From contig NZ_NFIP01000001.1 in NCBI RefSeq assembly GCF_002161805.1, positions 62,001-126,000 on the forward strand: 64,000 nucleotides of DNA. The letters are read 5' to 3'. This DNA is from Collinsella sp. An307. GTDB lineage: Bacteria; Actinomycetota; Coriobacteriia; Coriobacteriales; Coriobacteriaceae. The notes under the pieces were generated by a model. That model did no database searches, was not told where the DNA came from, and saw only the letters and a program-made list of their open reading frames with translations. Below, piece by piece: positions 7,982-56,971 of the stretch (positions are counted from its first letter, which is position 1; each line of letters starts with the position of its first letter). The position numbers were made by a program, and so were the translations under genes.

Positions 7982-9574
7982 TCAATGCAGCTGCACCGCC
8001 GCAAGGGTGGCGACGGCGACGGTGCCGATCCAGAATGCGAGAGGGACGGCGTTCGGCATAAGTGCTGAGGCGGCGGCAATCACGATGGCGAGGATTGCTG
8101 TCGCCGATTCGCAGGTAAGGCGAACGCGCTTAGGCATGAGGTCGACTACGTCGAGGGCGCCGATGCAAGCGAACGAGACGTCAAGCGCGACGGCGCATAG
8201 GACGAAATCAATCGTCTTGCCAGTAGAAACGCCTAACGCTCCCATGCAGAGGCCTACGGCGATCGAGGAGAGCGTGGCGACGATGAGGCCCGGCAGCACG
8301 TTCCAGATAAAGAGCACTTGCGTTGACACGGGAAGATGCTCTCGGAAGAAGCGGTTCCTCACGTCCGCGATAAAGACGCGGGCGAGCGTTCGGGGCGCAT
8401 CTGAGCTGTTGATGGCGAGTAGGATCCAGCTTGCTGCGCCGAGTATGCGCGCGCCCGTCTCGCCGCCGAGTATTGCGGCCGTCGTACTTGCTTGCGCGAG
8501 CGTGCCGGATAGCAGTGCGGCTCCCAGCGGTGCGATGAGGGCGCCGGCGGCTATAAGGGCAGGTATCACAGCAATTTGCCGGACAAGCGAGATCGACGAG
8601 CGCGCAAGGACGACGAGCGAGCCTTGGGCGCGGGGCATACGGATGCGCGGTGAACGACGCGCCTCTCGACGACTTTTGGTGAGAGCTCGGTACGCCTTTG
8701 GGTTGTATACCGCCATGCGGCGTACTGTATACAGCGAGGGATTAGTCGCAGCCTCGCTAGAGAGTGCGACAGGGGAGAGCATGCGGGCGGCGACGGCGGC
8801 GAATAGAATTGCTGCGATAAAGAATATGCTCGCACCGAGCAAAGGAACAAGGTTTCCGTGCAGCAGGTCGAGCGCGATGTTCTGACACGTGGTGAACAAC
8901 ACCGCGGCGACGCAGACAAGGGCCGTCGCTCCGATAAGGACGGCGATTGCGAGCGCAGGGCGTCTCGCGCGTCCCAAGCGCAGGCGTGTTATTCCTATCA
9001 CCCATGCGATGGCATATGCCGCAGAGCATGCAAGGCCCAGGGTAGCGCCATAGGGAAGACAACTGGGGAGCGTCGGGGCACCGCCTGCCGACGCTAAGGC
9101 AAAGGCGGCGACAAGATAGCCCGCGCACGTGCACGTGACCGCGCGGACAACAATACGCTTCGCAAGCTCGATGGCGCTCCACGAGATGATGGAGACGGGC
9201 TGCTGTGTGAGCCAGGCAACATCGGGCGGCGATGGAATCCAGGGAGCACGCCACGCCGCGCGTACTGTCCATGCTGCAGCGGCGGTGGCAGGAAGCACAA
9301 GCGCCGCACCAGCAATCAGGCGGCCTAAGTCTGCCAGCAGCGCTGCCTCTTGGGGACTTGATGCCTGCGCTGCACCAACGACAAGACCGAGGATCCAGAG
9401 CCAACAGGCGGTGACCGCCGCCCCCACAATCACAACGAGGTACGCAAGGTAGGCGCGCTCGGCGACACCGCGCGCCTCGTCGAGGTCCGTCCCAGCGGCC
9501 CAGGGCCAAAAGTTGAGCTCAGCACGCAGGTGCTTTGCTTCAAGCCATAAAAGCGCGGGAAGCTCGAAGGACAT
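7982..9574 (-). CDS. ABC-2 type exporter permease (hypothetical substrate)
   Basis: A 530-residue polytopic membrane protein with about twelve hydrophobic segments, starting at the ATG 9572-9574 (MSFELPALLWLEAKHLRAEL). It lies 10 bases downstream of an ABC ATPase gene on the same strand, so the two form an export system. The soluble N-terminus followed by paired groups of membrane segments resembles large ABC-2 permeases of Actinobacteria. No substrate clue is present. Codon use is somewhat more AT-rich than the flanking metabolic genes. Confidence 0.7.
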   Translation of the reverse strand: MSFELPALLWLEAKHLRAELNFWPWAAGTDLDEARGVAERAYLAYLVVIVGAAVTACWLWILGLVVGAAQASSPQEAALLADLGRLIAGAALVLPATAAAAWTVRAAWRAPWIPSPPDVAWLTQQPVSIISWSAIELAKRIVVRAVTCTCAGYLVAAFALASAGGAPTLPSCLPYGATLGLACSAAYAIAWVIGITRLRLGRARRPALAIAVLIGATALVCVAAVLFTTCQNIALDLLHGNLVPLLGASIFFIAAILFAAVAARMLSPVALSSEAATNPSLYTVRRMAVYNPKAYRALTKSRREARRSPRIRMPRAQGSLVVLARSSISLVRQIAVIPALIAAGALIAPLGAALLSGTLAQASTTAAILGGETGARILGAASWILLAINSSDAPRTLARVFIADVRNRFFREHLPVSTQVLFIWNVLPGLIVATLSSIAVGLCMGALGVSTGKTIDFVLCAVALDVSFACIGALDVVDLMPKRVRLTCESATAILAIVIAAASALMPNAVPLAFWIGTVAVATLAAVQLH

Positions 9575-11053: not shown

Positions 11054-14000
11054 CTACGCGAAGTAGCTCACGCCGCCCTCGAAGATGGGCATGTACTTGT
11101 CGCCCGGCACGTTCTGGTAAAGACCGTTGCCGCTGCGTTCCACGTGGCCCATCTTGCCAAAGACGCGACCGTCCGGCGAAGTGATGCCCTCGATGGCCAT
11201 GACCGAGCCGTTGGGGTTCACGTCGAGGTTCATGCTGGGCGTGCCCGCGGCGTCCACGTACTGCGTGGCAATCTGACCTCCGGCGATGAGCTGCGAGAGC
11301 ACCTCGTCGTTGGCGACGAAGCGGCCCTCGCCGTGGCTGATGGCGACGGTGTGGATGTCGTCCACGTCGCACTTGGAGAGCCAGGGGGAGAGGTCGCTCG
11401 CCACGCGCGTGCGCACAAGGCGGCTCTGGTGGCGGCCGATGGTGTTGAAGGTGAGCGTGGGGGCGTCCGCGGTGGCGTCGACGATGTCGCCGTAGGGCAC
11501 GAGGCCGAGCTTCACGAGCGCCTGGAAGCCGTTGCAGATACCGAGCATGAGACCGTCGCGTGCCTGGAGCAGGTCGCGGACCGCCTCGGTGACCTCGGGC
11601 GCGCGGAAGAACGCCGTGATGAACTTGGCGGAGCCGTCCGGCTCGTCACCGCCGGAGAAGCCGCCGGGGATCATAACAATCTGGCTCTCGCGGATGCGGC
11701 GTGCGAGCTCGTGGGTGCTCTCTGCAACCGCCTCGGGCGTGAGGTTGTTGATGACAAAGGTGTCAGCCACGGCACCGGCGCGCTCGAAGGCGCGGGCGGT
11801 GTCGTACTCGCAGTTGTTGCCCGGGAAGACGGGGATGATCACGCGCGGGCGCGCGAACGTCTCGCCGGTGTGGATCGCCTTGATGCGGCCGGTCTCGGCG
11901 CAGCGGTAGCTGACAGGCTCCACCGCGGGGAGCTTCTCGGCCTCATCGGCGGGCGTGCGGTAGGCAAAGACGCTCTCGATGCCGCTCTCCCACGCCTCCT
12001 GCAGCTCGGCAAGGTCGATGACCTCGTGTTTGCGACCGATGTAGGTGAGCTCGTAGGCCTCGTCGGTCTCGCCGAGCTCAAACACCTCAAGCTCGTCACC
12101 GTAGGCCGGCAGCTCGGCGCCGTCAGCAAGCTCTACGATGAAGCTGCCGTAGGCGTGGTCGGTGAGGTCGATGCCGTTCTCGTCCTCGATGCCCGGCGTG
12201 TAGGCAAAGCCGATGCGGTTGCCCACGCACGCCTTGAAGACCGCCTCGGCGATGCCGCCAAAGCCCGGCGTGGAGGCGGAGAGGACCTTGCCCTCGCGCA
12301 CGAGCTGTTCGACAAGCTCAAAGGCCTTGAGCTGGCTCGTTGCTTCGGGGAGGACGCCTGCCCACTCGTAGGTGGGGCAGATGAGCGCCACGCGGTGGCC
12401 GGCGCCCTTGAACTCGGGGGAGACGACGTGGTCGAGCGAGCCGGTTGCCACGGCAAAGGAGACGAGCGTCGGCGGGACGTCGAGGTCCTCGAAGGAACCG
12501 GACATGGAGTCCTTGCCGCCGATGGCGCCGATACCGAGGTCGACCTGCGCCATGAGGGCGCCAAGCACCGCTGCCATGGGCTTGCCCCAGCGCTCGGGAA
12601 CGTCGCGCAGGCGCTCGAAGTACTCCTGGAAGGAGAGGTAGGCGCGCTTGTGGTCAAAGCCGGTCGCGACGAGCTTGGCGACGCTCTCCACCACGGAGAG
12701 GTAGGCGCCGCGGTACTGGTCGGCGCTCATGATGTAGGGGTTGAAGCCCCACGCCATACCGGAGACCGTGGTGGTCTCGCCCATCACGGGGAACTTGGCC
12801 ACCATGGCCTGAGCGGGGGTGAGCTGCGTGGTGCCGCCAAAGGGCATGAGCACGGTGGCAGCGCCGATGGTGGAGTCAAAGCGCTCGGCAAGGCCCTTGT
12901 TGGAGGCCACGTTGAGGTCGCTCACGAGGGTGCGCATCGCGTCGGCAAAGGTCTCCGCGTCGTCGCCCGGGGCCGCCGGAATCTCGTCGACAGCCTGGAC
13001 GGGCACGTGGACGGCCTGGTGCTTGGGCGCGCCGTTGCTGGCGAGGAATTCGCGCGACAGATCCACGATCACGTCGCCGTCCCAGGCCATGCGCACGCGC
13101 TTCTCGTGCGTGACCTCGGCGATGACGGTCGCCTCGAGGTTCTCCTCCGCGGCGTAGCCCATGAACTCGTCGACGTCGTCCTCGGCCACGGCCACGGCCA
13201 TGCGCTCCTGGGACTCCGAGATGGCGAGCTCGGTGCCGTCCAAGCCCTCGTACTTCTTGGTCACTTGGTCGAGGTCGATGTAAAGGCCGTCGGCGAGCTC
13301 GCCCACCGCTACGCTCACGCCGCCTGCGCCAAAGTCGTTGCAGCGCTTGATGAGGCGGCACGCGTCCTCGCGGCGGAAGAGGCGCTGGAGCTTGCGCTCC
13401 ATGGGGGCGTTGCCCTTCTGGACCTCGGCGCCGTCCTTCTCGATGGACTCGACGTTGTGCGCCTTGGATGAGCCGGTGGCGCCGCCGATGCCGTCACGGC
13501 CGGTGCGGCCGCCGAGCAGGATGATCTTGTCGCCGGGTTGGGGCTCCTCGCGGCGGACGTGGGACGCCGGCGTGGCACCCACCACGGCGCCGACCTCCAT
13601 GCGCTTGGCCACATAACCCGGGTGGTAGAGCTCAGAGACCTGACCGGTGGCGAGGCCGATCTGGTTGCCGTAGCTCGAGTAGCCGGCGGCGGCGGTGGTC
13701 ACGAGCTTGCGCTGGGGGAGCTTGCCCGCAAGCGTCTCGGACACGGGCACCGTTGGGTCTGCGGCGCCGGTGACGCGCATGGCCTGGTAGACGTAGCTGC
13801 GGCCGGAGAGCGGGTCGCGGATGGCGCCGCCGATGCAGGTCGCCGCGCCGCCGAAGGGCTCAATCTCGGTCGGGTGGTTGTGGGTCTCGTTCTTAAAGAG
13901 GAAGAGCCAGTCCTCATCCGTGCCGTCGACGTCGACTTTGACCTTGACGGTGCAAGCGTTGATCTCTTCGGACTCGTCAAGGCCGGTGAGCACGCCCTCG

Positions 14001-45761: not shown

Positions 45762-45984
45762 AGAGAAACCTCCTTGTTCTGCTAACAGATACCGCACGCC
45801 ATGGTAGCACGGCAGGATGGGAAAAAGGTGCTAGTGCTGTCACAACATCACATCTGATTGAACGCGTGTGTCCGCATGCGTTGATTGCTCGTTGTCTCAA
45901 CAGATTGAATGTATATCTTTTTCTTACGCTGTAGGAGAATGTAAGTCAACCGATCAAGCGGCATCTTATTCGGAAGGATTGCGT

Positions 45985-48555
45985 ATGAACAAGCAGCAGC
46001 TGGCTTCGAAGATTTGGGAGTCCGCCAATAGGATGCGCTCGAAGATTGAGGCGAACGAGTATAAGGACTATATCCTGGGCTTCATCTTCTATAAGTTTCT
46101 CTCTGAGACTGAAATTGCTCGCCTTAAGGCGAAGGATTTCTTGGAGAGCGACCTTCCGACCTTGCGGGAAGAGGACTCCGAGCTGGTTGAATTCGTTAAG
46201 GATGAGTGCGGTTACTTCATCTCTTACGACAACCTGTTCTCAACATGGCTTGCCAAAGGTAAGGATTTCGGGATTGAGAACGTTCGCGATGCGCTTTCGG
46301 CGTTTGATCGCAATATCAACAAACCGCAGCGTCGTGTGTTCGACGGCGTCTTCGACACTCTCCAGACGGGACTATCGAAACTCGGCACCGATGCACGGAG
46401 CCAGTCCAAAGCGGTGCGTGATCTCGTGCAGCTCATTCGTGACATCCCTATGGATGGTCGTCAGGACTATGACGTACTTGGCTTCATCTACGAATACCTG
46501 ATTTCTAACTTCGCTGCGAACGCAGGTAAGAAGGCGGGCGAGTTTTACACCCCGCACGAGGTCTCTCAGCTCATGAGCGAGATTGTTGCATGGCATCTCA
46601 AGGGCAGAGGCGAGATCAACATCTATGATCCGACTAGCGGATCGGGCTCGCTGCTCATCAATATCGGCAAGGCCGTTGCCCGTCTTAACGGAAACCCCGA
46701 CTCCATCAAATACTACGCGCAGGAACTAAAGGAGAACACCTTCAACCTCACGCGCATGAATTTGGTGATGCGCGGCATTCTGCCGGATAACATCGTGGCG
46801 CGAAACGGCGATACACTGGAAGACGACTGGCCATGGTTCGAATCGGACGAGACCAAGGAAGAGACCTATGAGCCGTTGTTCGTGGATGCCGTGGTGTCCA
46901 ATCCGCCGTATTCTCAGCGTTGGGATCCTCAGGACAAGGAGCTAGACCCGCGGTTCGAGTACGGTATCGCGCCCAAGTCAAAGGCGGACTACGCCTTCCT
47001 GTTGCATGATCTCTACCACCTTCGCCCTGATGGCATCATGACCATCGTCTTGCCGCACGGTGTGTTGTTCCGCGGCGGCGAGGAGGGCGCTATTCGCAAG
47101 AACTTAGTGGAGAACCGTCATATTCAGGCGATTATCGGTCTCCCGGCAAACATCTTCTTCGGTACCGGCATCCCCACCATCATCATGGTGCTGCGTAAGA
47201 ATCGCCCGGCAGGCGAGAGCGATGTGCTCATTGTGGATGCATCCAAGCATTACGTTAAGGCGGGGAAGAGCAACAAGCTCCAAGCGAGCGACATCAAGCG
47301 CATTGTTGATGCTGTGACGGGCAATCGAACAATCGAGGGGTTCAGTCGCCCTGTATCGATTGAAGAGATTCGGGCAAACGACTACAACCTCAATATCCCG
47401 CGCTATGTGGATTCGTCGGAGGCACCTGAGACTTGGGATGTGTACGCATCCATGTTTGGCGGTGTTCCCAAGGCCGAGGTTGCTGCATTGGATCGGTATT
47501 GGGCGGCTTGGCCGTCGCTCAAGTCTGAGCTCTATATGGACGAGGGCGGTTGTTGCCTAGATCCGAAGAAGGGCGATCTTGCAGAGATGGTTCGGTCTAA
47601 CGCTGACGTTCAGGCGTTCGTAGACGATTTTGATCAGTCACTGCTTGACCTGCCGAACGAACTTCGTTCTGTACTTATCAACAATCCCATGACGGTGGAT
47701 GTGCTTGCCGAAGAGGGTGCGGTGAACAGGATTATTGAGCGAGCCATTGAAAATCTGCCACTTATCGATCCATATAACGCGTACCAATGTCTCGATGACG
47801 CATGGCAGGGTATCGCCATTGACTTGGAGATAATTCAGACTGAGGGTTTCGAGGCAGTACGCAAGGTCGACCCGAACATGGTCATAAAAAAGGTCAAGGG
47901 AGTTGACACCGAAGTTCAAGATGGATGGACGGGCCATGTGCTTCCCTTCAAGCTGGTGCAAGAGCAGCTGCTCTCTGATGATCTTTCGAAGATTAAGGAG
48001 AATGAGGGGCGTATCCCTCAGATTGATCAAGAGCTCTCCGAGCTGCTCGAGAACATGGATGAAGAAGATAAGGGATCGACCGACGCCGTAAACGATGAGG
48101 GGGATTCGTTTGTCACTGCTGCGCTCAACAAGGCAGTTAAAGCTTTGAAGGGCCAAGCAGAGTCAGATTTCGATCAAGCGCTTGTTCGGGCAAAGATGCT
48201 GAGTGACGAACAGAAGCGAGTAAAAAAGCAGATAAAATATGCTCGTTTTGAGCTGGAAGAGAGAACGAGGAAGGTAATGGCGTCGCTCACGGACGAGCAA
48301 TGCCGCGCGCTGCTTGAGGAGAAGTGGATCAACCCTCTAATGGCCGGCCTTAATTCTCTTTCTCAAAACGTGATTGACGAATTCGTTGCCAAGGTACGGA
48401 CGCTAAATGAGAAGTATGCGACCACCTATGCAGATGTGTGCCTTCAGATTGATGCAGCGGAAAAGGAGCTTGTCCAGATGCTTGGGCAGCTCACGGGTAA
48501 CGATTACGACATGGCAGGCATTCAGGAGCTCATGAGCCTGTTGGGCGGTGAGTGA
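45985..48555 (+). CDS. hsdM: Type I restriction-modification DNA methyltransferase subunit
   Basis: An 856-residue HsdM. The N-terminal helical domain (QLASKIWESANRMRSKIEAN) is followed by the N6-adenine methyltransferase core with motif I DPTSGSGSLLINIG (about 215) and motif IV NPPY (about 307), plus GEFYTPHEVSQLM. Residues from about 500 to the end are an extension of roughly 330 residues, charged and probably coiled-coil (KENEGRIPQIDQELSELLEN), not found in the usual 490-530 residue HsdM. Start ATG 45985 behind GGAAGGA. It overlaps hsdS by 8 bases. The sequence is AT-richer than the chromosome around it. Bases 45762-45984 hold the divergent promoters. Confidence 0.95.
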   Translation: MNKQQLASKIWESANRMRSKIEANEYKDYILGFIFYKFLSETEIARLKAKDFLESDLPTLREEDSELVEFVKDECGYFISYDNLFSTWLAKGKDFGIENVRDALSAFDRNINKPQRRVFDGVFDTLQTGLSKLGTDARSQSKAVRDLVQLIRDIPMDGRQDYDVLGFIYEYLISNFAANAGKKAGEFYTPHEVSQLMSEIVAWHLKGRGEINIYDPTSGSGSLLINIGKAVARLNGNPDSIKYYAQELKENTFNLTRMNLVMRGILPDNIVARNGDTLEDDWPWFESDETKEETYEPLFVDAVVSNPPYSQRWDPQDKELDPRFEYGIAPKSKADYAFLLHDLYHLRPDGIMTIVLPHGVLFRGGEEGAIRKNLVENRHIQAIIGLPANIFFGTGIPTIIMVLRKNRPAGESDVLIVDASKHYVKAGKSNKLQASDIKRIVDAVTGNRTIEGFSRPVSIEEIRANDYNLNIPRYVDSSEAPETWDVYASMFGGVPKAEVAALDRYWAAWPSLKSELYMDEGGCCLDPKKGDLAEMVRSNADVQAFVDDFDQSLLDLPNELRSVLINNPMTVDVLAEEGAVNRIIERAIENLPLIDPYNAYQCLDDAWQGIAIDLEIIQTEGFEAVRKVDPNMVIKKVKGVDTEVQDGWTGHVLPFKLVQEQLLSDDLSKIKENEGRIPQIDQELSELLENMDEEDKGSTDAVNDEGDSFVTAALNKAVKALKGQAESDFDQALVRAKMLSDEQKRVKKQIKYARFELEERTRKVMASLTDEQCRALLEEKWINPLMAGLNSLSQNVIDEFVAKVRTLNEKYATTYADVCLQIDAAEKELVQMLGQLTGNDYDMAGIQELMSLLGGE

Positions 48556-49798
48556 CGTGACCGAGAAAGCTATGGTGCCGAGAATCCGTTTCAAAGGTTT
48601 CACTGACCCTTGGGAACAGCGTAAGTTAGGCAACTGTGGGACAACCTATAGCGGTCTGAGCGGTAAAACCAAAGAGGATTTCGGTCATGGCAACGCCAGG
48701 TTCGTTCCGTATACCAATGTCTTCGACAATCCCCTGACGGACACAGAGCGGCTCGAGGCAGTCGAAATAGATTCGAGCCAAAATAAAGTTGCGTATGGTG
48801 ACGTGTTCTTCACCGTGTCTTCTGAAACGCCGGATGAAGTTGGTATGTCCTCCGTTTGGCTCTCTGACCAGGATGATGTTTACCTCAACAGCTTCTGTTT
48901 TGGATACAGACAAGATGCAACGTTTGACCCGCATTACCTAGCCTACATGCTCAGGTCAAGTTCGATTCGTTCCGATCTCACTCTGCTGGCTCAGGGGATC
49001 TCTAGATTCAACATATCCAAGAACAAGGTGATGGAGTTGAGCGTTGCTGTTCCGTCTGCGGCAGAGCAGAAGCAAATTGGTCAATACTTCGCCCACCTCG
49101 ACAGTCTCATCACCCTTCATCAGCGTAAGTATGACAAGCTTGTTCAGATGAAGAAGGCTCTTCTTGACAAGATGTTTCCGAAAGCCGGCGAGTGCGTTCC
49201 AAAAATCCGCTTCAAGGGTTTCACTGACCCTTGGGAACAGCGTAAGTTAGGCGAGCTCTGCACTATTTCTAAGGGGCATGGCTACAGTAAAGCTGACATT
49301 AGGGATGCTGGCACCCCACTGATCTTGTATGGACGCCTGTATACCCAATATGAATCACGTATTGAGGGCGTGGACACTTTTGCCGTTGAGCAAGAGGGAT
49401 CGCTTCTTTCGAAGGGTAACGAAGTAATCGTTCCTGCATCCGGGGAAACGGCAGAAGACATTGCCGTTGCATCATCCGTGCGCAGGTCAGGAATCATTTT
49501 TGGAGGCGATTTGAATGTCGTTACTCCAGTAAGCAAGCTTGATCCAGACTACACCGCGCTTGCTATAACGTACAGCAAAGCTCATGACGATTTAGCAAAG
49601 CGAGCACAAGGAAAATCAGTCGTACATGTCCATGGCAACGATATCGCCGAAGTTGAAATCTCTTACCCGTCGGAAAGCGAGCAGAAGCGCATATCTACGG
49701 TCGTTCTCGGTCTCGACAACCTCATCACCCTTCATCAGCGTAAGTTGGAATTACTCAAGTCCGTCAAGAAATCCCTCCTTGAGGGTATGTTTGTATAG
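48548..49798 (+). CDS. hsdS: Type I specificity subunit, expressed copy with two TRDs
   Basis: A 416-residue HsdS built as a tandem: each half opens with RFKGFTDPWEQRKLG and closes with LITLHQRK, enclosing different target recognition domains (about 30-180 and 240-390). The DNA of the openings is a 51-base near-identical repeat (48581-48631 and 49202-49252), and the closings share CACCCTTCATCAGCGTAAG (49111-49129, 49726-49744). Further copies border the silent cassettes downstream, so recombination can exchange either half. GTG start overlaps hsdM. Together with HsdM and HsdR it defines which bipartite site is methylated and cut. Confidence 0.95.
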   Translation: MSDVTEKAMVPRIRFKGFTDPWEQRKLGNCGTTYSGLSGKTKEDFGHGNARFVPYTNVFDNPLTDTERLEAVEIDSSQNKVAYGDVFFTVSSETPDEVGMSSVWLSDQDDVYLNSFCFGYRQDATFDPHYLAYMLRSSSIRSDLTLLAQGISRFNISKNKVMELSVAVPSAAEQKQIGQYFAHLDSLITLHQRKYDKLVQMKKALLDKMFPKAGECVPKIRFKGFTDPWEQRKLGELCTISKGHGYSKADIRDAGTPLILYGRLYTQYESRIEGVDTFAVEQEGSLLSKGNEVIVPASGETAEDIAVASSVRRSGIIFGGDLNVVTPVSKLDPDYTALAITYSKAHDDLAKRAQGKSVVHVHGNDIAEVEISYPSESEQKRISTVVLGLDNLITLHQRKLELLKSVKKSLLEGMFV

Positions 49799-49821: not shown

Positions 49822-50007
49822 ATGGATCGCAAAAGATTGATGGAGGAAGCCATTCATTCGGGAGAGATGGAAGGTGCCTACGTCTCTGAAGAGTTCCGCA
49901 AGGACGCAGACGAGTACGTCAAGGGCGATATTTCCATTGAGGACTTAATGAGAAGGACCAAGCGTCGCTGGATAGTTGAGCGCAAAGAGGCTGCTCATGT
50001 CGGATGA
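49822..50007 (+). CDS. VbhA-like antitoxin of Fic
   Basis: A 61-residue protein with SGEMEG at 13-18, matching the inhibitory (S/T)xxxE(G/N) helix of class I Fic antitoxins; the glutamate (E17) would block ATP positioning in Fic. The rest, EEFRKDADEYVKGDISIEDL, resembles the VbhA/antitoxin-VbhA family. It overlaps fic by 11 bases and starts behind GAGGAGG. Confidence 0.88.
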   Translation: MDRKRLMEEAIHSGEMEGAYVSEEFRKDADEYVKGDISIEDLMRRTKRRWIVERKEAAHVG

Positions 50008-50653
50008 GTTTGTTGACCCTTATATCGACCCTGCGACTGGGGTTTTGAAGAATCTCGTCGGCGCTGAGAGCTATGACGATCTTGCTCGCGCGGAAGGGGA
50101 ACTTGCTTCCATGCGGATGGGCGAGCTATTCGAGCAGGGGAGCTTTCATCCAACTGGGACGCTCGAGGACTTTCAGCATATCCATCGCTGGCTCTTCCAA
50201 GACATATACGCTTGGGCAGGATGTATCAGGACTATCGAAATCCGCAAGAACACAGAGGACGCCGAGTTCTTTCTTCCCTCTGTCAATATCGAGATGGGCA
50301 TGGAGTGGTCGCGCTCGAAACTTGAGCATGACGGCATGCTCAAAGGATTGAGCCAAGATCGATTTGTCGAGCGTTTGGCGTATCACTATGACAATTACAA
50401 CTTCGTTCATCCTTTCCGCGAGGGGAACGGTAGGACACAGCGCGTGTTCTGGACGCTGCTCTGTCATGATGCAGGTTACGACCTTGATTGGCGCTTGGTT
50501 TCTGGTGTAGAGAACGATGAAGCAAGCCGGCTTGCGGCGGAGGATAGGGACTACTCGGCGCTTATTGCGATGTTCACGCGCATCGCGAAGCCTTGTGATC
50601 CGGCAGTTCCGATTAACAAAGAACTTGCTCCGGGCCGACACCTGAAAGATTGA
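49997..50653 (+). CDS. fic: Fic-domain AMP transferase toxin
   Basis: A 218-residue Fic protein with the complete active-site motif HPFREGNGRTQR (H138), a flap region IEIRKNTEDAEFFLP, and the N-terminal helix YDDLARAEGELASMRM. Such enzymes AMPylate targets such as gyrase and topoisomerase IV; the antitoxin gene upstream restrains it. The ATG 49997 lies within the antitoxin gene. The pair sits inside the segment that hsdS inversion would flip, between the expressed hsdS and the silent cassettes. Confidence 0.93.
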   Translation: MSDEFVDPYIDPATGVLKNLVGAESYDDLARAEGELASMRMGELFEQGSFHPTGTLEDFQHIHRWLFQDIYAWAGCIRTIEIRKNTEDAEFFLPSVNIEMGMEWSRSKLEHDGMLKGLSQDRFVERLAYHYDNYNFVHPFREGNGRTQRVFWTLLCHDAGYDLDWRLVSGVENDEASRLAAEDRDYSALIAMFTRIAKPCDPAVPINKELAPGRHLKD

Positions 50654-50671: not shown

Positions 50672-51115
50672 TTACTTACGCTGATGAAGGGTGATGAGGG
50701 AGTCGAGGCTGCGGAAGAGGGCGCCGATTGCGCGCTGCTCCTCAAACTCTGGCTCCACAACAATCGTTGAGCTGATTGATTGCTTCGATAGACTTGGTAA
50801 TCCGGTTGATTCATTCTTCGATTTCCAGTCGACCTTCAGGAAGAGGCAGAAGGCAAAATCGAGATCAACTCTTGGTCGAGGAACTGAATAAAACAGCGTG
50901 TCAACGGTCCAAAACGGCGCATACAGGATATAGGGGTTGTCAATGGTCCCTTTCCTGCCGATTCCGATTGCGTCATCAGAAGATGAAAGAGCATCAGACA
51001 CGCTCGTCATATAACCACCGGTCCCGTATACCGGAACATCCCCTGAAGGCAGATGCTTATAATCCTTGCCACTGCAAACGTCAACAACCTCCCCCAGCTC
51101 ACGCTGTTCCCAAGC
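50672..51115 (-). pseudogene. Silent hsdS cassette 1 (single TRD, inverted)
   Basis: Reading leftwards, the cassette begins at the GCTTGGGAACAGCGTGAGCT repeat (51115-51096), encodes PAWEQRELGEVVDVCSGKDY through one complete TRD to RSLDSLITLHQRK, and stops just after its CACCCTTCATCAGCGTAAG repeat (50693-50675). There is no ribosome site or start codon matching HsdS, so it is a donor segment rather than a gene. Inversion between matching repeats would place this TRD in hsdS. Confidence 0.88.
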
Positions 51116-51169
51116 AGGAAGCTTAATTCGAGTAGATAACGGGGCTCTCGCTTGGGAACAGCGTAAGTT
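51096..51169. repeat. Inverted repeat pair between the silent hsdS cassettes
   Basis: The arms AGCTCACGCTGTTCCCAAGC (51096-51115) and GCTTGGGAACAGCGTAAGTT (51150-51169) are inverted copies with 18 of 20 positions alike. The same TGGGAACAGCGTAAGTT occurs in hsdS at 48611 and 49232. All share the core CAGCGTAAG with the second repeat class, CACCCTTCATCAGCGTAAG (49111, 49726 and 51651 on +, 50675-50693 on -). They are the likely crossover sites. Confidence 0.85.
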
Positions 51170-51767
51170 AAATGAATATCTTGAAACCTCAAGAGAGAAG
51201 AATGAGTCTTGCCGTTTTGGCAAGGACGATGTTCTTTCAGTCTCGGGCGACTATGGGATCGTTAACCAGATTGAATTTCAGGGCAGATCGTACGCTGGCA
51301 CATCCGTTGCAAATTATGGTGTTGTCCATAAGGGCGATGTCGTATATACCAAATCGCCATTGAGGAGCAATCCATACGGGATTATTAAAACCAACAGGGG
51401 AAATGACGGTATTGTTTCGACTCTCTATGCCGTTTACCATCCGACAGAGAAGACTCATCCCGACTTCGTGCAGGTATATTTTGAGCAGAATGCGCGTATG
51501 AATAATTACATGGCGCCATTAGTCAGCAAGGGTGCCAAAAACGATATGAAGGTGTCAGCCGAGAATGCACTAAAAGGTGCGGTAACTTTTCCCGGAATCA
51601 AGGAGCAAGAAGTAATCGCGTCTTATTTCTCTCAACTGGACGATCTCATCACCCTTCATCAGCGTAAGCAAAAAAACGGTTTGACGGTCCACAAAGTCGC
51701 CGTTTACCTATCTCTGAGCTGTGAAAGAGGGGGTAACGGTAGAATGGGAAAAACTAACTACGAATAA
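51150..51767 (+). pseudogene. Silent hsdS cassette 2 (single TRD)
   Basis: It begins at GCTTGGGAACAGCGTAAGTT (51150-51169), encodes LAWEQRKLNEYLETSREKNE through one TRD to LDDLITLHQRK at the CACCCTTCATCAGCGTAAG repeat (51651-51669), and runs on for about 32 unrelated residues to a stop. It has the same orientation as hsdS. It lies head to head with cassette 1, their opening repeats 34 bases apart (51116-51149). It is probably not translated by itself. Confidence 0.87.
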
Positions 51768-51802: not shown

Positions 51803-54800
51803 ATGGTCTTCGAGAATGAAGCTCAATTTGAAGAGGCTCTTATCGGCGTGCTCAAACAGCACGGATGGACTGACGACGTGTTGCGTTATCCGACGGAAGA
51901 GCAGCTTCTTCAAAACTGGGCGGACATTCTCTTCCGTAATAATTCAGGTATTGATCGACTCAACGGCTGCCCGCTAACCAAGAGCGAGATGGCTCAGATA
52001 ATCGAGCAGGTGGAGACGCTTAAAACGCCCCTTGCGCTCAATTCGTTCATCAATGGCAAGACGGTGTCTATTAAGCGCGACAATCCCGACGATGTAGCCC
52101 ATCTTGGCAAAGAGGTCAGCCTTAAAATCTATGACCGAAGGGAAATTGCCGCAGGCAATAGCAGCTACCAGATTGCCCAACAGCCCGTTTACCGTGCCAA
52201 GAACAAGTTACTGAACAGTCGACGGGGCGATATCTGCCTGCTCATCAATGGTATGCCGGTCATTCATATCGAGCTTAAACGCAGCGGGGTGCCGGTGAGC
52301 CAGGCGTGCAGCCAGATTGAGAAATATGCTCATGAGGGGGTCTTCTCGGGCATTTTTCGACTTGTGCAGATTTTCGTTGCCATGAATCCGGACGATGCGG
52401 TGTATTTTGCCAATCCCGGTCAGGGAACGTTCAATCCGAGCTATTTCTTCCACTGGGCGGATTTCAATAACGAGCCGATTTGCGCTGGTAAGCATTCGGG
52501 CGCAGATGAATGGAAGCGGTTTGCATCGCTTCTCCTCTCTATTCCTATGGCACACCAGCTCATCGGATTCTATACGGTTGCGGATAGTTCTGACGGCTGC
52601 CTGAAGGTACTGCGAAGCTATCAGTACTACGCTGCCAGCGGCATATCCGATAGGGTGCGCAAATGTGACTGGGACGAGCCGGTTCCCATGGGCCAGCCTG
52701 GAAGGCCTGGTGGATATGTCTGGCATACCACTGGCTCCGGAAAGACCATGACGAGCTTCAAGTCGGCGCAGCTCATTGCTGACTCAAAAGATGCGGATAA
52801 AGTTGTCTTCCTCATGGATCGCATCGAGTTGGGAACCCAATCGCTCAAGGAATACCAGTCTTTTGCCGATGATGCCGACGATGTCCAAGGAACCGAGAAC
52901 ACAGGCGTGCTTAAGGCGAAGTTGGATGATCCGGACCCGTCTAACACGCTTATCGTCACCTCGATACAGAAGATGAGCAATATCAAGGCGGGGAAAGGCA
53001 AAATCACCCAAGCGGAAATTGACCGCATGGCCAGCCGGCGCATCGTTTTCATCATCGACGAGTGCCACCGTTCCACCTTCGGGGACATGCTCCAAGATAT
53101 CCGCCGATCGTTCCCAAACGCGCTCTATTTTGGATTCACTGGGACGCCCATTCTTGATGAGAATCAGAAGAAGAACTCTACGACTTCCATGATCTTTGGG
53201 TCATGCATTCACCGATACAGCATTGCCGACGGTATCCGTGACGGCAACGTATTGGGCTTCGACCCCTATATGGTTACTACGTACCGTGACGATGATGTGC
53301 GCGAGGCTGTCGCGCTCGAGCGCGCCAAGGCCAAGGACGTGTCCGAAGTGTATGGCGACGCCAAGAAGGCAAAGGTGTTCGAATACTACATGGATTCCTC
53401 GAAAGTTCCCATGGGTCCCATGGTGGCGCCTGATGGAACGCATATCAAGGGTATCGAAGATTACCTTACTGCGGAACAGTACGCTCCCGGTACGCCGCAT
53501 GAGGACATGGTGGTTGCGGACATCATCGATCGGTTTCCCGTACTTAGCCATGGGAACAAGTTCCATGCGATTTTCGCTACAACTTCAATCTCCGAGGCTA
53601 TCAGCTACTATCGCCTTCTGAAGGCGCACGCGCCGCAGCTCAACGTGACGGCGCTCTTCGACCCGAACATCGACAACAATGATGGCGCCACTATCAAAGA
53701 AGATGCGCTGGTTGAAATCGTCTCCGATTACAACGCCGCATATGGCAAGGAGTTCACAATTCCAACGTGGGCAAGCATGAAGAAAGACATCTCGGCGCGA
53801 CTTGCACACAAGAAACCCTATGTGAATATCGATGCTAAACGCGAGGGACGCATCGACATTCTCATCGTGGTCGACCAGATGCTCACAGGTTTCGATTCCA
53901 AGTGGGTGAACACGCTTTATCTTGATAAGGTTATCGATTACGAGAACATTATTCAGGCGTTCAGCCGCACCAATCGCCTCTTTGGACACGAGAAGCCCTT
54001 TGGCGTGATTCGCTATTATCGTAAGCCTCACACCATGAAGGGCTTTATCGAGGCGGCGGTCAAGCTCTATTCAGGTGATAAGCCCCTCGACCTGTTTGTC
54101 TGCAAGCTGCCGGAGAACATTCTTTCTATGGATGCTCGCCTGATGGAGATCGAAGCAGTGTTCGAGGCTGCAGGCGTTCCCGACCTCTCGCGGCTGCCCG
54201 ATTCCGTTGAGGCGTGCAAGAAGTTCGCCAAGGACTTCGCTGAACTCAGCGAGTTTCTAGAAGCCGCGAAAATTCAAGGGTTCTCATGGGATCAGCGTAC
54301 GTATGAGGTGTGGGACGAAAACGGCGACACGGTATTCGTGGAGCCGACTATAGACGAACAGATCTATCTAATCCTTGTTCAACGTTATCGTGAGCTTGGA
54401 GGAGGGCCGGGACCCGGGTCGGAGCCAAGTGCCCCTTATGACCTTAAAGGCTATATCACGGCAATTGATACAGGGCACATCGATACTGACTACATGAACG
54501 CCAACTTTACCAAGTGGCTCAAAGCGCTCGCTCAGGGGGACGAGGAGCTGGAGAGGGCGGAGAAAGAGCTTCACCGCTCTTTCGCGGCGCTCACGCGGGA
54601 AGAGCAGAAGATCGCCGAGGTATTCCTCCATGATGTTCAACGCGGTGACGTGGTGCCCGAGGAGGATATGACGTTGCGCGACTACATCACCGCCTATGCC
54701 AAACGGGCAAAAGACGATCAGTTTGAGCGCGTCTCGGAGCTTCTTGGATGCAACAAGGACCTTCTCATCGAGATGTGCAGCGCTGACTTGCGCGAGGACA

Positions 54801-54973
54801 ACCTCAACGAGTTTGGACGCTTTGATCGGCTTAAAAAATCCGTCGACGTGTCTAAGGCGCGCGCCTACTTCGAGGAGAAGGATGGCACATCCCTGCCCCC
54901 GTTCAAAGTGAATATCCTCGCAGCCAACCTGCTCAAGCATTTCGTGCTTAACGGTGGAGTGGACATTGCCTAA
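51803..54973 (+). CDS. hsdR: Type I restriction endonuclease subunit R
   Basis: A 1056-residue HsdR. The N-terminal nuclease domain has the PD-(D/E)xK elements GDICLLINGMPVIHIELKRS (about 140-158). The translocase has Walker A TTGSGKT (about 310), DECH box IIDECHRSTFG (about 417), FTGTPIL and the motif VI region QAFSRTNRLFG. It cuts non-methylated DNA after ATP-driven translocation when assembled with HsdM and HsdS. The ATG is behind AGGGAGGAC, 35 bases after silent cassette 2. Length is normal. Confidence 0.95.
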   Translation: MVFENEAQFEEALIGVLKQHGWTDDVLRYPTEEQLLQNWADILFRNNSGIDRLNGCPLTKSEMAQIIEQVETLKTPLALNSFINGKTVSIKRDNPDDVAHLGKEVSLKIYDRREIAAGNSSYQIAQQPVYRAKNKLLNSRRGDICLLINGMPVIHIELKRSGVPVSQACSQIEKYAHEGVFSGIFRLVQIFVAMNPDDAVYFANPGQGTFNPSYFFHWADFNNEPICAGKHSGADEWKRFASLLLSIPMAHQLIGFYTVADSSDGCLKVLRSYQYYAASGISDRVRKCDWDEPVPMGQPGRPGGYVWHTTGSGKTMTSFKSAQLIADSKDADKVVFLMDRIELGTQSLKEYQSFADDADDVQGTENTGVLKAKLDDPDPSNTLIVTSIQKMSNIKAGKGKITQAEIDRMASRRIVFIIDECHRSTFGDMLQDIRRSFPNALYFGFTGTPILDENQKKNSTTSMIFGSCIHRYSIADGIRDGNVLGFDPYMVTTYRDDDVREAVALERAKAKDVSEVYGDAKKAKVFEYYMDSSKVPMGPMVAPDGTHIKGIEDYLTAEQYAPGTPHEDMVVADIIDRFPVLSHGNKFHAIFATTSISEAISYYRLLKAHAPQLNVTALFDPNIDNNDGATIKEDALVEIVSDYNAAYGKEFTIPTWASMKKDISARLAHKKPYVNIDAKREGRIDILIVVDQMLTGFDSKWVNTLYLDKVIDYENIIQAFSRTNRLFGHEKPFGVIRYYRKPHTMKGFIEAAVKLYSGDKPLDLFVCKLPENILSMDARLMEIEAVFEAAGVPDLSRLPDSVEACKKFAKDFAELSEFLEAAKIQGFSWDQRTYEVWDENGDTVFVEPTIDEQIYLILVQRYRELGGGPGPGSEPSAPYDLKGYITAIDTGHIDTDYMNANFTKWLKALAQGDEELERAEKELHRSFAALTREEQKIAEVFLHDVQRGDVVPEEDMTLRDYITAYAKRAKDDQFERVSELLGCNKDLLIEMCSADLREDNLNEFGRFDRLKKSVDVSKARAYFEEKDGTSLPPFKVNILAANLLKHFVLNGGVDIA

Positions 54974-54987
54974 CCCGGCGGTTCATT

Positions 54988-55990
54988 AGCCCTCATCAGC
55001 GTGGGCCAGAAGGCTGACGGAGGATGGTGAACATGGTAGGGACAATCAATGGCGACACGCTGCTTTGTACGTATTACGCTCAATGGATTCAGGTTTACAA
55101 GGCGGGTGCGATTCGCGATGTGACCATGAAGAAGTATGAGCTGTCGCTGAATTGGCTCAAGAAGTTGGCGCCCAAGCTCAAACTGCGGGAGCTGGACAGG
55201 ACCGAATATCAGAGGCTTATCAACGGTTATGCTGAAGCCCATGAACGACAGACGACGATGGATTTTCATCATCAACTCAAGGGTGCCATTCTTGATGCAG
55301 TCGACGAAGGCCTTATAGAACGCGACCCCACGCGCAAAGTGATAATCAAGGGAAGAAGGCCCCGGCGCAAGAAGGTGAAGTATCTCAATCAGTTTGAGCT
55401 TCATGCCATACTCGAGGACTTGCAGCTCGGAGATTCACCTGACTGGGACTGGCTAATTCTTCTAGTGGCGAAGACGGGGCTTCGTTTCTCCGAGGCACTG
55501 GGGCTTACCCCGGCGGACTTCGACCTTGCCCATCAGACACTCGAGGTAAACAAGACGTGGGACTATAAAAACGGAGGCGGGTTCGTCCCCACGAAGAACG
55601 CCTCTTCTGTGCGAAAGGTCCAGATGGATTGGCAGCTGACGATGCAGCTGGCATCTCTGCTCAAAGAGCTTCAACCCGATAAGCCGTTGTTCGTGCATGG
55701 CAAGGTGTATAACTCGACGGCAAACGGCGTCCTGGCAAGGCATTGCAGAAATGCCGGAACACCGGTTATCTCCGTTCACGGCCTGCGACATACGCATGCC
55801 TCTATCCTGTTGTTTGCGGGGGTATCCATCGCGAGCGTCTCAAAGCGCCTCGGGCACGCCAGCATGAACACTACGCAAGAGACGTACCTCCACGTAATTC
55901 GCGAGTTGGAGAACAAGGATGTCGACATCATAATGCGTGCGATTTCAACGCTCATGTAAGGACTGTTTTGGCTACGCGCTGATGAGGGCT
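54988..55990. repeat. Inverted repeats bracketing the recombinase gene
   Basis: AGCCCTCATCAGCGTG (54988-55003) and CGCGCTGATGAGGGCT (55975-55990) are inverted copies, 15 of 16 alike, placed just outside the recombinase start and stop. They share the TCATCAGCG core with the closing repeats of hsdS. They may be att-like sites or let the recombinase gene flip itself. Confidence 0.65.
55033..55959 (+). CDS. Tyrosine recombinase, probable hsdS invertase
   Basis: A 308-residue phage-integrase-family recombinase. All catalytic residues are visible: R151 in TGLRFSEALGL, the Lys region in FVPTKNASSVRKV, H249 and R252 in HGLRHTHAS, H275 in LGHASMNTT and Y285 in TYLHV. The N-terminal SAM-like core-binding domain (about 1-110) is present. 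ATG 55033 was chosen for its spacing from GGAGG; ATG 55024 is too close. Recombinases next to hsdS cassettes catalyse specificity switching in several bacteria, and the repeats here fit that role; integration of an island is the alternative. Confidence 0.9.
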   Translation: MVGTINGDTLLCTYYAQWIQVYKAGAIRDVTMKKYELSLNWLKKLAPKLKLRELDRTEYQRLINGYAEAHERQTTMDFHHQLKGAILDAVDEGLIERDPTRKVIIKGRRPRRKKVKYLNQFELHAILEDLQLGDSPDWDWLILLVAKTGLRFSEALGLTPADFDLAHQTLEVNKTWDYKNGGGFVPTKNASSVRKVQMDWQLTMQLASLLKELQPDKPLFVHGKVYNSTANGVLARHCRNAGTPVISVHGLRHTHASILLFAGVSIASVSKRLGHASMNTTQETYLHVIRELENKDVDIIMRAISTLM

Positions 55991-56041: not shown

Positions 56042-56971
56042 ATGGCGATTCCAAAGTATGACGAGCTGTTCGAGTACGTACTGCGGTTTCTTGCAGATGG
56101 GGCGGAGCACTCCGCGGCAGAGATGCGGGCTTCTATTGTTGCCGAGCTCAACTTGACCGAAGAGGAGCGCAACGAATATCTTCCCAGCAAGCGCCAGCGA
56201 GTAATCGATAACCGTATTGGCTGGGCTCGCACTTATCTCAAGAAAGCCGGTCTCATGCATTCGCCCAGGCGGGGCTGTTATCAAATCGACCAAGCAGGAG
56301 TAGACGCACTTGCTTCAGACTGCCCTATAGATAACGATTATCTTGTTCGCTTCGACTCCTTCCGTGTGTTCAAGGAGGAAAGTCGCGGCGGTGAAAAAAA
56401 CGTCGGAGCAGATTCAAATGATGGAAATGCGGATGGTGCACAGTCCGAGACTCCTGATGAGGCTCTCGCCCAAGCATATGAAGAGATTACTGCCCAACTT
56501 GCTGATGAGATCCTAGAGGAAGTCATGAAGCTCACTCCCGTCGCTTTTGAGCACATGGTGCTCGACCTTATGGCAAAGATGGGTTACGGTACGCTCGAGG
56601 CGCCTGCGAGGACAACTCCGAAGACGGGCGATGAAGGGATCGATGGCATCATCATGCTCGATAAGCTCGGCTTCGATCTCATTTATGTGCAAGCAAAGCA
56701 CTACGCGGTAAACCATGCCGTGGGGAGGCCCGATATCCAAGCCTTTGTCGGTGCAATCGCTGGCAGAGGAGGAAAGGGCCTGTTCGTTACAACGTCCCAG
56801 TTCTCCGCTCCCGCGGTTGCCTATGCCAAGATGCAGCATATCGTTTTGATTGATGGGCAGAAGCTCGCGCATCTTATGATCGAGAACGACTTTGGCGTTG
56901 CAACGAAGCAGACGTTCTTCATCAAGGCAGTAGACTCCGATACGTTCACCTCTTACGTGGAGGATGAGTAA
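56042..56971 (+). CDS. mrr: Mrr-like type IV restriction endonuclease
   Basis: A 309-residue protein with an N-terminal winged-helix Mrr_N domain (YDELFEYVLRFLADGAEHSA, SKRQRVIDNRIGWARTYLKK), an acidic linker and a C-terminal Mrr catalytic domain: FEHMVLDLMAKMGYG, GDEGIDGII and YVQAKHY (D-QxK nuclease site), then GLFVTTSQFSAPAVAYA. Mrr cuts DNA with foreign methylation. It is 80 bases after the recombinase and has the same AT-richer base use, so it belongs to the island. Confidence 0.92.
   Translation: MAIPKYDELFEYVLRFLADGAEHSAAEMRASIVAELNLTEEERNEYLPSKRQRVIDNRIGWARTYLKKAGLMHSPRRGCYQIDQAGVDALASDCPIDNDYLVRFDSFRVFKEESRGGEKNVGADSNDGNADGAQSETPDEALAQAYEEITAQLADEILEEVMKLTPVAFEHMVLDLMAKMGYGTLEAPARTTPKTGDEGIDGIIMLDKLGFDLIYVQAKHYAVNHAVGRPDIQAFVGAIAGRGGKGLFVTTSQFSAPAVAYAKMQHIVLIDGQKLAHLMIENDFGVATKQTFFIKAVDSDTFTSYVEDE

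Follow-up and report, generated by a model that had tools for sequence, protein, structure and literature searches.

The window analysed here, by which we mean the whole stretch of 64,000 nucleotides (64 kb), comes from the 2.2-Mb genome of Collinsella sp. An307 and contains a type I restriction-modification (RM) locus with hsdM, hsdS and hsdR all present. The hsdM gene (45868-48555, plus strand) and the active hsdS with its two recognition domains (48548-49798, plus strand) are accompanied by two silent hsdS halves of one recognition domain each, one on the minus strand (50672-51223, Pfam Methylase_S) and the other on the plus strand (51066-51767), which shows a weak Methylase_S match and a PLHQRK-type 3' repeat. 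The array also houses a VbhA-type antitoxin and a Fic gene (49822-50653, plus strand), which separate the active hsdS from a silent half and are reminiscent of the Phd-Doc pair in the pneumococcal tvr locus; Fic is also found near hsdS in the relatives L039, L041, L058, L062 and L107. The hsdR gene (51803-54973, plus strand) is directly followed by an intact open reading frame for a tyrosine recombinase (55024-55959, plus strand; Pfam PF00589, E 8.7e-19), and a gene for an Mrr-type restriction endonuclease (56042-56971) stands directly 3' of it. The order hsdR-recombinase-Mrr recurs in a Lachnospiraceae contig (L120:5027-5932).

The extra hsdS pieces carry inverted repeats of the active hsdS (I1-I3, 84-86% over 36-45 bp), and the catalytic residues of the recombinase are conserved in an alignment of 20 homologs (R154, K177/K182, H252-R255, H278 and Y288). 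Together with the full set of hsd genes, these are features of an inverting type I RM locus, in which the tyrosine recombinase probably shuffles the hsdS recognition genes of a DNA-defence system.

The arms around the recombinase gene and the hsdS repeats

A previous reading of this DNA from the sequence alone had reported inverted repeats just outside the recombinase gene, and they are indeed there. The upstream site AGCCCTCATCAGCGTG (54988-55003, plus strand) and the downstream site CGCGCTGATGAGGGCT (55975-55990, minus strand) pair at 15 of 16 positions, with an exact inverted match of 14 bp (54988-55001 and 55977-55990). The upstream exact block stops 22 bp 5' of the recombinase ATG at 55024, and the downstream one starts 17 bp past the stop codon, which ends at 55959. 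When the downstream flank was shuffled, none of 60 and none of 200 shuffles reached the score of the arms (maximum 11 versus 14 observed).

The hsdS repeats at this locus are of two types. Recognition domains start with GGGAACAGCGTAAGTTA (5' type; one copy has GTGAG) and end with CTTCATCAGCGTAAG (3' type), and both types contain the core CAGCGTAAG, preceded by A in the 5' type and by T in the 3' type. In the hsdS frame this core reads Gln-Arg-Lys (48617-48625, 49238-49246, 51098-51106 and 51159-51167), so that the putative crossover core is conserved at the protein level as a motif too. Both recombinase arms belong to the 3' type, not to the 5' type, with CCCTCATCAGCGTGGGCC around the core of the upstream arm, and T precedes the core in 96% of the recombinase arms across the family. 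If strand exchange covers the base before the core, pairing would be restricted to sites of like type, 5' with 5' and 3' with 3'. The sequence-only reading had also pointed out a likeness of the arms to the hsdS repeat, which holds in that TCATCAGCG is common to both and the upstream arm is 85% identical to the hsdS 3' repeat over 20 bp (I18); it has to be narrowed to the 3' type, and the inner half of the downstream arm deviates from it.

Exact matches to CCYTCATCAGCG number six across the 2.2-Mb genome: four close hsdS recognition domains at their 3' ends and the other two flank the recombinase gene, against one match for the reversed control pattern. Similarly, the 13-mer CCYTCATCAGCGT has 36 copies in ten relatives, nearly all within the hsd/recombinase locus, and its reversed control occurs 0-1 times per genome there. 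We also scanned the 64 kb with a weight matrix built from other loci, and the top five hits were the upstream arm (20.2) and the four hsdS 3'-type sites, namely those of domain 1 (49117-49131, plus strand, 23.1), domain 2 (49732-49746, plus strand, 20.9), the silent minus-strand domain (50673-50687, 23.1) and the silent plus-strand domain (51656-51670, 24.3). Sites on the minus strand at 50673-50687 and 51098-51106 mean that the repeats are present in both orientations at the locus.

The downstream arm scored 8.9, which is at background, whereas the upstream arm is level with the hsdS 3' sites. Its core TCATCAGCG is intact and its inner arm is disturbed, reading CAGCGCGTAGCC where CAGCGTRAGCC is expected: CAGCG is followed by CGTAGCC, with AGCC displaced by one base. 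The bracket sites are probably genuine, and the recombinase gene lies between inverted copies, the downstream one degraded, of a site that its own product presumably recognizes.

Conservation and natural rearrangement of the sites in relatives

The bracket test covered 94 homologous recombinase loci from whole genomes and GTDB contigs. Leaving aside the window and its near twin, these are 63-82% identical to the Collinsella recombinase (tblastn), and Actinobacteria, Firmicutes, Proteobacteria and Saccharibacteria are among the names in the contig titles. A bracket, defined as inverted arms with an ungapped score of at least 11, surrounds the recombinase gene in 73 of the 94, a figure to be read as prevalence and not as 73 independent events because the set came from a close-relative search and includes related genomes. 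Relatives with intact brackets include Collinsella stercoris DSM 13279 and Bifidobacterium callitrichidarum. The same test gave brackets around 1 of 49 hsdM and 3 of 55 hsdR genes as controls, and directly oriented pairs were found around the recombinase gene in 3 of the 94 homologs. About a fifth of the 94 have no detectable bracket, and none was found in several IMG/VR homologs of 50-57% identity. Homologs on Ligilactobacillus salivarius plasmids, whose neighbours are GbpC/Spa adhesins in some cases and hsdS in others, have no significant bracket either. In L170, L171 and L180 (about 8000-8900; L. salivarius plasmids), recombinase relatives of 54-55% identity stand beside GbpC/Spa-domain surface proteins, not hsdS, which suggests that this enzyme family also serves surface-protein loci.

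The bracket arms of the homologs share the core ATCAGCGTRAGC and lie 10-60 bp from the ends of the recombinase ORF. Among 63 pairs aligned on the core, the identity between arms is 92-98% over TCAGCG, and on the inner side it has sunk to chance by a distance of about 15 bp. Moreover, bracket 9-mers recur elsewhere in their own locus 2.0 times on average versus 0.14 for shuffled 9-mers, the best 9-mer per locus having been taken, which somewhat favours the real value. The recombinase lies between convergent hsdS halves in 16 loci. In 15 others, hand-picked and mostly from Lachnospiraceae, no recognition domain was detected beside the gene; here the T and core of the upstream arm do not vary and those of the downstream arm hardly do, while gene identity is 72-93% (median 77%) and bases close by in the downstream flank agree about as often as by chance. 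This comparison was anchored on the core pattern, which inflates identity at some positions but not at the preceding T and the free positions. Judged from such comparisons, the bracket is a feature of the family, more general than the window.

Several relatives differ from each other by rearrangements at these sites. When Bifidobacterium callitrichidarum (L062) is compared with B. aesculapii (L065), the recombinase gene is reversed relative to both flanks, with the DNA on both sides conserved at 76-86% and inverted sites around the gene in each; the two also differ in their recognition-domain content, so that more than a single simple inversion may be involved. Two close genomes of the Collinsella family (L034 and L035) have recombinase DNA that is 99.5% identical and carry one recognition domain at opposite ends of the cassette, 3' in one genome and 5' in the other; this domain, identical over 491 bp, diverges exactly after CATCAGCGTGAG, so that the break falls inside the site. 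In plasmid records of two Enterococcus raffinosus strains (L173 and L174), recognition domains have changed places around a related recombinase: the segments 8708-9383 and 11434-12109, which flank its gene, show a reciprocal inverted exchange, with the gene in the same orientation in both strains and hence no net flip. In addition, eight contig ends fall within 150 bp of the recombinase gene, compared with about one per 150 bp at distances above 900 bp. Such an excess would be expected of populations with more than one arrangement, and the repeats may contribute to it. Two contigs of one assembly both start at a copy of the crossover site (G041 C10:5-17 and C34:5-17), which may mean that arrangements were mixed in the population that was sequenced.

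Both orientations of the cassette are thus found in relatives, while the two available genomes of the Collinsella locus share one. The near twin of the window (L057; recombinase protein 99% identical) has the same orientation and the same downstream arm, together with an upstream arm that fits the consensus (23.9), and no inverted state was found in these two genomes. Of the 34 loci in which the recombinase gene comes straight after hsdR, 31 have the two genes co-directional and 3 have the recombinase gene inverted, counts that ignore kinship among the loci. This bias, the degraded downstream arm and the same orientation in the near relative make a freely flipping on/off switch unlikely. The data do not show the pattern of free self-inversion at equilibrium, and an inversion that is rare, selected against or decayed fits better.

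Interpretation and comparison with known systems

Our preferred interpretation, which we consider probable, is that the arms are 3'-type recombination sites of the locus's own recombinase and form an invertible or exchangeable gene cassette. They would be the same type of site that closes each hsdS recognition domain; the recombinase gene would be a cassette that its enzyme could invert by crossover in the shared TCAGCG core, the presumed region of strand exchange, and that could also swap with neighbouring recognition domains through the same core. The rearrangements at the sites in relatives are presumably catalysed by the recombinases encoded there. In the window, the cassette stands outside the hsdS array, behind hsdR, with an upstream site still of hsdS quality; since the downstream site is without its inner arm, inversion has probably become weak here or been lost altogether. 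Points against this interpretation are the background score of the downstream arm, the 31:3 orientation bias, the single orientation in the two genomes with this locus, the unflipped gene in E. raffinosus and the fifth or so of homologs without a detectable bracket. The earlier suggestion that the enzyme may invert its own gene is partly supported: for the family, the conserved inverted brackets, the two orientations and the breakpoints within sites in relatives support a capacity for self-inversion, as far as sequence comparison can tell, and for this genome the low score of the downstream arm, the 31 of 34 co-directional loci and the near twin make current inversion doubtful. Inversion might also affect the expression of the recombinase, for instance through the uncoupling from upstream transcription that the earlier reading proposed. 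A further step, that the bracket is a selected self-limiting device by which the recombinase inverts its own gene and so changes its expression and the rate of specificity shuffling in many gut bacteria, locked here by the decay of one site, is a tentative proposal to which we assign a rather low probability.

The same modest probability is given to the arms being a passive vestige, namely the 3' ends of recognition domains left from a former place of the gene inside the hsdS array, without a present role and with the downstream one decaying. The resemblance of the upstream arm to the hsdS coding repeat beyond the core, the degraded downstream arm and the 16 loci where the gene is still sandwiched by convergent hsdS halves would suit such an origin. 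However, both cores are kept while the neighbouring bases have diverged in the 15 loci without a detected adjacent recognition domain, and the arms match each other (14/14) better than either matches hsdS over the same stretch. It is still less probable that the arms are autoregulatory sites, to which the recombinase binds and thereby represses or blocks its own transcription without inverting the gene. Their short distance from the ORF ends and the 31:3 orientation bias would agree with binding alone, but an operator could do without a further inverted copy past the end of the gene, the homologs have 73 inverted pairs against 3 direct ones, and the site junctions in relatives show crossover.

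It is very improbable that the arms are attachment sites dating from the integration of an island or of the recombinase gene itself: the recombinase does belong to the phage-integrase family, with relatives in prophages, but integration leaves direct repeats at both ends, and the arms are inverted, with direct pairs around only 3 of the 94 homologs. For this reason the relics of island integration that had been proposed as an alternative find no support in the usual sense; a decayed, once-active bracket is a live option. Chance similarity deserves hardly any credence, because, common as short inverted pairs are (52 pairs listed in 12 kb), no shuffle attains the score, all six genome copies lie in this locus, the bracket is conserved in homologs from several phyla and the gene controls are low.

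Phase-variable type I systems and the recombinases that serve them have been described before; as a candidate means by which the recombinase might limit itself, the conserved pair of crossover sites on either side of its gene is concrete. In addition, the motif ATCAGCGTRAGC offers a handle for finding shufflable hsdS loci.

A parallel to a gene between its own sites is the Hin segment of Salmonella, in which the recombinase gene lies between two inverted sites on which Hin acts. Hin is a serine recombinase and its segment holds a promoter for flagellar genes, whereas the Collinsella enzyme is a tyrosine recombinase. A promoter scan of our region gave one weak promoter-like match, at chance level, and a promoter switch is rejected on this ground.

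Among type I RM systems, recombinases amid hsdS genes have been described, and the openly accessible journal literature consulted yielded no dedicated inverted pair around the recombinase gene and nothing direct on Collinsella hsdS or on self-inverting recombinases. Related surveys are those of REBASE (PMC7394358) and of genome-wide inversions (PMC5903667). In gut inverton profiling, an hsdS-linked inverton group was noted as a potential exception, with recombinases in regulatable and non-regulatable orientations (PMC11892184). The cod/SpnIII locus of Streptococcus pneumoniae is similar in that a locus-encoded tyrosine recombinase, PsrA, inverts hsdS at 15-bp inverted repeats; unlike our recombinase gene, psrA is placed between the hsdS genes, and the parts of these reports consulted describe no dedicated inverted pair around it (PMC4948785; PMC7096588). 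The hsdS-recombinase-hsdS arrangement of Bifidobacterium longum (PMC4618763) and the streptococcal SsuCC20p (PMC10790761) likewise have the recombinase amid hsdS pieces, and no conserved sites bracketing it are described in the consulted parts of either paper. In five strains of S. agalactiae, the SsuCC20p recombinase gene is reported to be inverted with respect to the locus; unlike Collinsella, these strains had lost the inverted repeats (PMC10790761).

The SpnIV tvr locus of S. pneumoniae resembles ours in its type I RM genes, its tyrosine recombinase (TvrR), the toxin-antitoxin genes among the hsdS pieces and the two repeat types with a common short core, and it uses an attenuator and toxin-antitoxin homologs to limit the recombinase (PMC6265443). 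On the other hand, the tvr repeats all point in one direction and shuffling proceeds by excision and reintegration (PMC6265443), the toxin-antitoxin pair is the Phd-Doc-like tvrAT instead of Fic/VbhA, and the Collinsella recombinase stands behind hsdR with an inverted pair of its own. A tvr-type excision-reintegration locus is rejected on account of the minus-strand sites and of a recombinase gene behind hsdR, not between hsdS pieces. Overall, the Collinsella locus is probably a variant of the inverting type I loci already described, with a recombinase cassette that has been rearranged in some relatives and in this genome is probably crippled on one side.
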